From contig NC_011529.1 of the NCBI RefSeq assembly GCF_000018365.1, positions 1,612,001 through 1,676,000 of the forward strand: DNA of 64,000 nucleotides, in the 5' to 3' direction. Made by a program: the position numbers and the translations under genes. Numbering within the stretch: the first letter of the stretch is position 1; each line of letters starts with the position of its first letter. Below the pieces are notes generated by a model that worked only from the letters and a program-made list of their open reading frames with translations, made no database searches and was not told the DNA's origin. Source of the DNA: Thermococcus onnurineus NA1 (lineage in GTDB: Archaea; Methanobacteriota_B; Thermococci; Thermococcales; Thermococcaceae). This document shows, one piece after another, positions 8,409 to 11,249 of the stretch.

Positions 8409-8434
8409 TTTATGTATGTGATTGTGTAGGCAAA

Positions 8435-8447
8435 TCGCTTAAATATG
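8435..8447 (+). promoter_or_regulatory. TATA box for the diiron protein / MCP / alaX run
   Basis: GCTTAAATATG fits the archaeal TATA consensus. A transcript starting ~25 bases downstream would begin just before the GGTGG ribosome-binding site at 8468-8472. That is part of the reason for choosing ATG 8478 as the start of the next gene instead of the ATG at 8445, which lies inside the TATA box. Confidence 0.55.
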
Positions 8448-8477: not shown

Positions 8478-9245
8478 ATGGGTGAGTACCTTATAGAGCC
8501 AGGTCTCGACCCGAGGAAGGATCACGTCCTCTACAGGGACGACGAGCACCTTGTGGTTTATCTTGGAACCCAGGAAGGTGGTGATGACGTCGACGTCAAC
8601 AGCTATCTCATCGTCAGCAGGGGCAGGGGCATCCTCATAGATCCTGGAGGGTACAAGATATTTTCAAAGGTTCTCGCCAACGTCTCCAAGTACATCGACC
8701 CGAGGGACATAGAGTATGTATACATTTGCCATCAGGATCCTGATGTAGCGGGGAGCCTTCCTCTATGGAGGGAGGTCAGTAATTCTAAGATAATCGTCCA
8801 CTGGCTCTGGACAAGGTTCCTCCCGCATTTCGGTTTCGAAGACGCCGATTCAGTGACCTACCAGCTTCCAGATGAGGGAGAGGCTATCCACTTTGGGGCA
8901 ACTATCCTTGAGTTCATCCCTGCGCACTTCCTTCACAGTCCTGGCCACTTCACGATATACGACCACAGGAGCAAGTTCCTGTTCACGGGCGATATAGGTA
9001 TAGCCCTCCTGGATGAGCCTTACATAGTGGTTGAAAACATGGAAAGACACATTCAGGCGATGAGGCCGGTACACGAGCGGCTTATGCCCACTAGCGCTGC
9101 GATAAAGCTCTGGCTCGGCCGCGTTCGCTATTTAGATGTGGAAGCCATACTGCCTCAGCATGGGGCCATTATACCCAAACAGCACGTCAAGAGATTCTTT
9201 GATTTCCTTGAGAACCTTAAAGTGGGCATCGATGTAATGCGCTGA
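8478..9245 (+). CDS. ODP-like diiron metallo-beta-lactamase-fold protein
   Basis: 255-aa protein with the fold of the flavodiiron-protein metal domain but no flavodoxin domain. Candidate iron ligands follow the flavodiiron pattern: His85, Asp87 and Asp89 in CHQDPD, His153 in FLHSPGHF, Asp172 in FTGDIG and His228 in LPQHG. Stand-alone proteins of this kind (ODP, oxygen-binding diiron protein) have been characterised as Fe/O2 sensors of a bacterial chemoreceptor (Treponema denticola). Here too the next gene, 10 bases downstream, is a soluble chemoreceptor-like protein. The O2-sensing role is inferred from that parallel. Alternatives are a hydrolase or an oxygen/NO reductase needing a separate flavoprotein. 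Start ATG 8478 has GGTGG upstream. Confidence 0.8.
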
Positions 9246-9255
9246 GGTGGTTACC

Positions 9256-10029
9256 ATGAACATCAGGAGCATCGAGAAGGCATCGAGTGCACTGGCCCAG
9301 TCGGTCAGGATAAAGACTTCCAGCAGGGAGTCCAGCAAGATTATCGACGAGCTTGCGGATCAGATCAGCGGGCAGTTTCTTGAGAATAACATGGTAATTA
9401 TCGAGAATATTGAAAAGCTCTCTCAGGTGATGAAAGAGCTTGAGCGCTTTCAGACGGAGTTTTTACCATTTTTCCAGCGCTTTGAGGTGTTTGCCAAAGA
9501 GTTCAACACCCTCGTTGAAAATCTTGAGTACATATCTCGCATAAGCGACTCCATAGCAAGTGTTGCAAAGCAGACCAACTTGGTGGCCCTAAATGCTTCG
9601 ATTGAAGCCGCGAGGGCAGGGGAAGCTGGCAGGGGCTTCGCAGTTGTGGCGGATGAGATTCGGAAGATGGCCGTTCAGACTATGAACCTTGCTAAGGAGA
9701 TAAAGGACTTCAACGCCCGCGTCATGGGTCAGCTCGACACGCTTCGCGATGCCCTCGCTGTGATGGATCGGATCAAGGAGGGCACTGAGATACTCGGCAG
9801 GGACATTGAAACCATAGTGGAGATAAGTTCCGTCCTTGATGAGATTTCCCGCGAGCAGGAGGAGATTGTAAACGACATCAAGCGCCTTAACGGTATCGCC
9901 CTTGCGCTGAGGAAATTCTCGGACATGCAGGACAAGTACAGCAAGGAGCTCGCTTCCCTGCTCAGGATGATGGTTAGTGAGTACGCAAAGGAGCAGATGG
10001 AGCGCTCCAATGGGGGTCTAAGCGGGTGA
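9256..10029 (+). CDS. Soluble methyl-accepting chemotaxis-like signalling protein
   Basis: 257-aa all-helical protein with no signal peptide, transmembrane segment or HAMP domain. Residues ~100-150 hold the conserved chemoreceptor hairpin tip ([19 protein letters not shown], then [15 protein letters not shown]), the contact site for CheA and CheW. The helices on either side form a shortened signalling coiled coil, and no ligand-binding domain is visible. The input signal therefore probably comes from a partner, most simply the diiron protein encoded just upstream. No cheA, cheW or other che gene is in this window. Start ATG 9256 follows GAGGTGG. The stop overlaps the GTG/ATG cluster opening alaX, so the three genes look co-transcribed. 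Confidence 0.88.
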
Positions 10030-10034
10030 TGGTG

Positions 10035-11249
10035 ATGACAGAGCGCCTTTTTTACTTGTATCCCTACCTGAAAGGATCCGAGGCCGTTGTTCAGGCTGTC
10101 GAGCAGGGAAACGGTGTTATTAGGCTCGCCCTTGACAGGACTATCTTCTATCCTGAGGGCGGAGGCCAGCCCTCGGACAGAGGAGTTATAGAGGGGAACG
10201 GCTTCAGGGTCTTGGTGGACAGGGTCTACGAGAGGGACAGGATATGGCATGAGGGAAAGCTTGAAGGTCGCCTCCCTGAGGCTGGGGAAAGGGTCAGACT
10301 CGTCCTTGACTGGGATTGGCGCTACGAGAACATGAAGAACCACACCGGCCAGCACATTCTCTCGGCTGTTCTGAAGAATCTATACGGCCTTGACACTACT
10401 GGCTTTCAAATCTTTGATGACTACAACAAGATAGAGGTCAACGGCGAGCTTGACTGGGAGATGATAACAAGGGCCGAGATAGAGGCAAACAGTATCGTCT
10501 GGGAGGCTATTCCCGTAACGGTTGAGGAGTTCAAGGACCTTCCTGACGATATAGCCCGGACTCTCCGTAAGCACGTGAGCAAGGTTACCGACAGGGTAAG
10601 GATAGTGATGATTGGCGACATTGATAGAACCCCCTGTGGCGGAACTCACGTGAGGAACACCTCCGAGATAGGTCTCATTAAGGTGCTCCGTTTCTACAGA
10701 AAGAGCAAGAAACTCTGGCGCATAGAGTTTGTGGCTGGAAACCGGGCCCTCAAATACCTTAACAAGCTCCTAGCTGACTACTGGGAGAGTCTCGATGAGA
10801 TGCCCAACAAGAACCGCCCCCTCGTTGAGCGTGTGAAGGATCTCAAAGCGGAGCTTGATAAACTCGAGGAGGAAAAGGATAATCTAAGGAAAGAACTGTG
10901 GGAGTGGAAGGCAAAGGCTTTGCTCGATAGGGCCGAGGAGATTGGTGGAGTGAGGATTGTCTCCCACATTGAGAGTGCCGACATGAAGGACGCTCAGGCC
11001 TTCGTGGTTTACCTCGTCGATAAGAACCCTGGAACAATCGCTCTCGTTGTAGGAAAGAACTACGTAATCTTCGCCAAGAACAGGGACGTGGAAGGGATAT
11101 CGATGAACGAGCTCCTTAAGGAAGTCCTTGCCAAGGTTGGTGGTGGCGGAGGTGGGGGCGAGATGCTGGCAAGGGGAGGTGGATTTAAACTCCCACCAGA
11201 GGACGTTCTGAGAACAGCTCTGAACATTCTGAAAACTTACCTTTCGTGA
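10035..11249 (+). CDS. alaX: Alanyl-tRNA editing protein AlaX (long form)
   Basis: Free-standing editing hydrolase that removes serine or glycine mischarged onto tRNA-Ala. Zinc-binding motifs of the editing site are visible: HTGQH (near residue 100) and CGGTH (near residue 200). An N-terminal beta domain precedes them, and a C-terminal Gly-rich DHHA1-like region (a run of seven glycines, then EMLARGGGFKL) marks the long AlaX-L class. At 404 aa it fits that class. A coiled-coil linker (~250-290) separates the halves. Starts at 10026 (GTG), 10029 and 10035 (ATG) are all possible; GGTGATGGTG precedes 10035. Its link to the two sensor genes upstream is positional only. Confidence 0.93.
   Translation: MTERLFYLYPYLKGSEAVVQAVEQGNGVIRLALDRTIFYPEGGGQPSDRGVIEGNGFRVLVDRVYERDRIWHEGKLEGRLPEAGERVRLVLDWDWRYENMKNHTGQHILSAVLKNLYGLDTTGFQIFDDYNKIEVNGELDWEMITRAEIEANSIVWEAIPVTVEEFKDLPDDIARTLRKHVSKVTDRVRIVMIGDIDRTPCGGTHVRNTSEIGLIKVLRFYRKSKKLWRIEFVAGNRALKYLNKLLADYWESLDEMPNKNRPLVERVKDLKAELDKLEEEKDNLRKELWEWKAKALLDRAEEIGGVRIVSHIESADMKDAQAFVVYLVDKNPGTIALVVGKNYVIFAKNRDVEGISMNELLKEVLAKVGGGGGGGEMLARGGGFKLPPEDVLRTALNILKTYLS

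Follow-up and report, generated by a model that had tools for sequence, protein, structure and literature searches.

The closest described system is the chemotaxis oxygen sensor ODP of Treponema denticola, which is coupled to a stripped receptor, TDE2496, that modulates CheA; deletion of ODP changed the ordering of CheA (PMC7666581). A review (PMC6978683) describes the ODP-receptor interaction as dependent on conformation. ODPs have also been placed in bacterial and archaeal signaling operons, MCP operons included, by Muok 2019 as summarized in PMC7319448, so an archaeal ODP-MCP pair is not in itself a new kind of system. A first-pass annotation of the DNA analyzed here had pointed to the same two-gene logic in a bacterium; the logic had indeed been described, but PMC7319448, citing Muok 2019, spreads it over many bacterial and archaeal lineages rather than one bacterium.

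We analyzed a 64,000-nt stretch of the Thermococcus onnurineus NA1 genome (the window), in which an ODP gene is followed by a chemoreceptor gene. The Thermococcus pair resembles T. denticola ODP (TDE2498) and TDE2496 in protein family, metal ligands, the presence of a single CheA, and a soluble receptor that lacks both sensor and membrane parts, and its gene order matches that of close Treponema relatives of T. denticola. Unlike that system, it is archaeal and serves a cell with an archaellum in place of a flagellum, its ODP is only about 40% identical, its receptor is shorter and falls in a deep clade of its own, and its promoter carries a box common to archaellum genes.

The ODP and its partner receptor

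The first gene (8478-9245, + strand; ATG at 8478, stop at 9245) encodes a stand-alone, 255-aa diiron protein of the metallo-beta-lactamase fold, ODP-1, which sequence profiles and a predicted structure identify as a genuine ODP (oxygen-binding diiron protein). It matched the Pfam ODP family (PF19583) at 233 bits against a cut-off of 27, and its closest solved relatives were the T. maritima and T. denticola ODPs (PDB 6qrq/6qnm, E about 1e-58). The AlphaFold model (pLDDT 92) superposed on the "chemotaxis sensor ODP" crystals of these two species with TM scores of 0.83-0.91; for T. maritima ODP (6qrq/6qwo), which has the same ligands and about 39% identity, the scores were 0.88-0.91. The ten best structural matches were all ODP chains, the peroxy-diiron form 6r9n included, and flavodiiron proteins all ranked below them.

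With the start codon at 8478, the ligand set proposed in that annotation proved exact: H85, D87 and D89 in the HxDxD motif (8730-8744), H153 (8934-8936), the bridging ligand D172 (8991-8993), and H228 (9159-9161), all on the + strand and matching the HxDxD...H...D...H pattern of the ODP family. The same annotation had set HxDxD apart from the HxExD of flavodiiron enzymes as an oddity. This was mistaken, and we rejected the idea of an unusual active site: HQDPDV is invariant in 141 aligned ODPs (30 ODP-1, 31 of a second class described below, and 80 bacterial proteins, the last to be read with caution since their loci were retrieved partly by an HQDPDV-containing pattern) and in both solved ODPs, so HxDxD is the family norm.

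Flavodiiron proteins (flavorubredoxin, ROO, FprA) share the metallo-beta-lactamase diiron fold with ODPs but carry HxExDH, whereas ODPs carry HxDxDV and lack a flavodoxin domain. On the strength of this homology to flavodiiron oxygen reductases, ODP-1 could be mainly an oxygen-scavenging enzyme that is co-transcribed with a receptor by chance. However, ODP-1 has HQDPDV rather than HxExDH, is 255 aa long with no flavodoxin match at its C terminus, and has no reductase partner adjoining it, while another locus of the genome has a 425-aa frame for a distinct flavodiiron-like protein.

Ten nucleotides downstream lies a 257-aa, HAMP-less chemoreceptor gene (9256-10029, + strand; ATG at 9256, stop at 10029). 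Its only Pfam match was the MCP signaling domain (PF00015 MCPsignal, 102 bits), and no membrane segment was found (best 19-residue hydropathy mean 0.73). Coordinates, Pfam and hydropathy thus agree with the earlier picture of a signaling hairpin, 10 bases after the ODP gene, that lacks membrane and ligand domains. In the PDB it came closest to 3g67/3g6b, a soluble receptor, and to 2ch7, a cytoplasmic one. The CheA/CheW-binding tip (9577-9699, + strand, an approximate extent) is near-identical across Thermococcales orthologues. The arms of the hairpin differ in length from those of the organism's other MCPs, so its entry into the same array is not assured. Although the window genome has a CheR gene, a methylation consensus was absent from all 30 orthologues (the window receptor and 29 others). 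A close kinship of this receptor with bacterial ODP receptors was rejected, as the Thermococcales ODP receptors formed their own deep clade in a signaling-domain tree that is not resolved.

The module extends beyond these two genes, with a promoter box upstream (8413-8445, see below) and a gene for an AlaX-like alanyl-tRNA editing protein (10026-11249, + strand; PF07973/DHHA1) that overlaps the MCP stop and is probably co-transcribed with the pair. A functional tie of this gene to the sensor is not evident, and we assume no role for it. Rfam contained no match to an RNA element in the region.

Conservation of the pair and its link to chemotaxis genes

Our survey covered 94 Thermococcales genomes, from which 60 loci with strong ODP matches were fetched; with the window, the resulting 61 loci split into two clades, ODP-1 (n=30) and ODP-2 (n=31). 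ODP-1 orthologues were 71-91% identical to the window protein. The receptor stood directly behind ODP-1 in every one of the 30 loci, with one MCP truncated, and the AlaX-like gene came next in 29. Among the bacterial ODP loci, 76 of 80 had an MCP directly downstream (Spirochaetota, Aquificota, Nitrospirota, Thermotogota and Thermodesulfobacteriota), so the adjacency is not confined to one genome. No ODP was found in the same phylum outside the Thermococcales at E 1e-40. Two bacterial-survey loci stood out: a long-branch ODP in Brucepastera (L168) lacked an adjacent MCP, and the ODP at L131 is part of an open frame of 1124 aa that may be a fusion.

Since a V-ATPase D gene preceded 27 of the 30 ODP-1 loci, the two genes might have been inserted behind the V-ATPase operon by accident and simply co-inherited. 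The pair nevertheless remains intact, receptor included, at the three loci outside this context (L063, L072 and L084), occurs in the same order in the five bacterial phyla, and has its own conserved promoter. We therefore rejected a neighborhood accident, whose probability we regard as negligible.

Two loci carry an extra soluble MCP of ~410 aa between the V-ATPase D and ODP-1 genes (L078:6701-7942 and L092:6701-7930, both on the - strand). The N-terminal ~115 residues of this protein had no match in Pfam or PDB sequences, and a globin-like N-terminal domain considered for the versions in G027 and G069 was rejected for want of Pfam or PDB support.

ODP-2 belongs to the same Pfam family, keeps the ligands and is about 42% identical to ODP-1, but its operon partner is a START-like protein rather than an MCP, which was never its neighbor in 31 loci. 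The tight operon (L055:5905-7842, - strand, and 28 similar Thermococcales loci; absent from the window genome) encodes a ~110-aa protein with no Pfam match, a ~265-aa protein with a predicted START/CoxG-like fold and, last, ODP-2. ODP-2 may represent an ODP module whose output differs.

The first-pass reading depended on the presence of CheA and CheW, and both were found in the window genome along with CheR. CheW (G000:C1:1089331) and CheA (1095477) adjoin the archaellum genes. Across the 74 good genomes, ODP-1 was present in 27 of the 30 with canonical CheA and CheW versus 2 of the 44 without (Fisher p about 1e-14, a value that ignores shared ancestry and is inflated by non-independence), while ODP-2 showed no association with CheA/CheW (p 0.62) and is independent of chemotaxis genes. 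Three chemotaxis-positive genomes lacked ODP-1. Conversely, ODP-1 was intact in G049, a good but chemotaxis-negative draft of 90 contigs, which may simply be missing the che cluster.

The other of the two exceptions, the genome G069, lacks CheA and CheW, its partner MCP is missing residues 1-96, and its ODP-1 carries H153R, the only altered metal ligand among the 30 ODP-1 proteins. The extra MCP in this genome (409 aa) lies upstream in the same cluster (L092:5457-7930, - strand). Because CheA/CheW, MCP residues 1-96 and His153 have all been lost in this one genome, the ODP-MCP module, judged from these sequences, appears to break down after loss of the kinase. The loss of a ligand in a CheA-less genome also argues against ODP-1 being mainly an oxygen scavenger, as does the fact that its gene goes with CheA/CheW and with promoters of the motility type, not with general oxygen defense; we consider scavenging with a receptor alongside by chance very improbable.

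Separately, a divergent CheA-like kinase (Hpt, P2, HATPase and a weak CheW domain) is encoded at L223:5286-7571 (+ strand) by an archaellum promoter with a CheC-like neighbor, and G019, G021, G032, G050, G055 and G067 also carry one. Similar frames with weak CheW domains occur in genomes without canonical CheA, several of which are also without any MCP.

A promoter box shared with motility genes

The operon is preceded by a tandem box with a 12-nt period, TGTATG-N6-TGTAGG (8413-8430, + strand), which is conserved ahead of the operon across Thermococcales and is followed by an alignment-supported BRE/TATA-like core, CAAATCG-CTTAAATA (8431-8445, + strand), roughly 33 nt upstream of the ODP-1 ATG. 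The box at 8413 is the single exact match with a BRE/TATA inside the window. Across genera, the non-coding stretch ahead of ODP-1 is conserved as TGTAGG-N6-TGTAGG and then CAAATCG-CTTAAATA, and the core CAAATCGCTTAAA likewise occurs in some MCP promoters. Allowing up to 1 mismatch, the box lay directly before 26 of the 30 ODP-1 genes and, in 2 more cases, before the extra receptor gene that heads the cluster (28/30 in all; 0.005 expected), while none of 29 ODP-2 operons had it.

The same element stands before the archaellum (arl) operon, where the window genome has three perfect overlapping copies, and before many MCP genes, so the sensor would be made together with the motility machinery; on this evidence, the ODP-MCP module appears to be switched on with the swimming genes. 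The EarA motif A(C/G)(C/G)TACA(T/C), in up to three repeats, is known at the archaellum operon (PMC10665913), and reverse-complement repeats of it are present in 28 of the 30 ODP-1 operons. The placement differs, however: a typical EarA site would be expected about nine nt upstream of the BRE in arl orientation, whereas the ODP-1 box abuts the BRE/TATA, is nearer to the TATA than its arl counterpart, and has the opposite orientation to it. Given these differences in position and orientation, the same regulator need not act at both promoters, or may act differently, although a common regulator is plausible from the shared motif.

In 21 chemotaxis-positive genomes we located 94 perfect-box loci. 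ODP-1 accounted for 17 of them, and 31 had an MCP domain no more than 2.7 kb away, counts far above the random expectation per site (0.07% and 1.4%, respectively); box positions beyond the fetched regions were judged from coordinates only. Other perfect-box sites include archaellum promoters (e.g., G000:C1:1086463 and G029:C1:806150), and a recurrent site lies about 7.4 kb upstream of ODP-1 within the V-ATPase genes (1226-1243 in the window). In the receptor regions of four genomes, most free-standing MCP genes had the box at the promoter, and TGTAGG/CCTACA boxes were seen at MCP promoters in L207, L208, L209, L210, L213, L215, L216, L218, L222 and others. The box-bearing MCP genes are thus a candidate motility/chemotaxis regulon. 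We found the box described at neither receptor nor odp genes in the literature; PMC10665913 covers archaellum genes only.

We lean toward a broader model in which the tandem TGTAGG/CCTACA box would put the archaellum, chemoreceptor and ODP-MCP operons under one regulator, probably EarA. In this model the oxygen/iron sensor is built only alongside the swimming machinery, and loss of CheA/CheW would lead to stepwise decay of the module, as in G069.

Proposed function and implications

The first-pass interpretation of an ODP working with a chemoreceptor is supported by these comparisons. Since the archaeal pair has the parts and gene order of the T. denticola system, the T. denticola mechanism is the best explanation for it, and we consider it likely that ODP-1 and the MCP form an intracellular Fe/O2 sensor unit that feeds the single CheA and is co-regulated with motility. 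ODP-1 would hold two irons at H85/D87/D89/H153/D172/H228, and O2 would bind this diiron site as in the T. denticola homologue. The iron or oxygen state of ODP-1 would then be passed to the partner MCP hairpin through protein contact, and the hairpin tip, by binding CheW and the one canonical CheA encoded in the genome, would alter kinase output. CheA/CheY output could in turn have the archaellum move the cell off oxygen or toward suitable Fe(II). Because the receptor is without methylation sites, its input would not be adapted by CheR/CheB. The operon would be transcribed from its own promoter with the EarA-type tandem box. We know of no biochemistry for any archaeal ODP.

The Thermococcales are strictly anaerobic, sulfur-reducing organisms, and this lifestyle would suit an ODP-1 that serves as sensor for the paired receptor but reads a signal other than O2 or Fe(II), such as NO, sulfide/polysulfide, another metal (e.g., Zn) or general redox state. 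The fold is common to NO/O2-reducing flavodiiron proteins, and a Zn-loaded ODP crystal (6qwo) exists. Nonetheless, all ODP-1 metal ligands and the invariant residues surrounding them match T. denticola ODP, and the peroxy-diiron crystal 6r9n is among the best structural matches, which makes such a signal rather unlikely in our estimation compared with sensing of iron or oxygen.

Relative to the literature, the co-loss with CheA, the decay case in which a ligand is lost, the second ODP class with its START-like partner, and the motility-type promoter seem to be new. The proposed sensor would place an iron/oxygen-sensing input to chemotaxis in strictly anaerobic, hyperthermophilic archaea, and comparative genomics ties the ODP-MCP input to the chemotaxis kinase. 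The contrast between ODP-1 and ODP-2 offers a route to the residues that let an ODP address a receptor, and the shared box yields a direct prediction of which genes EarA may govern beyond the archaellum operon.
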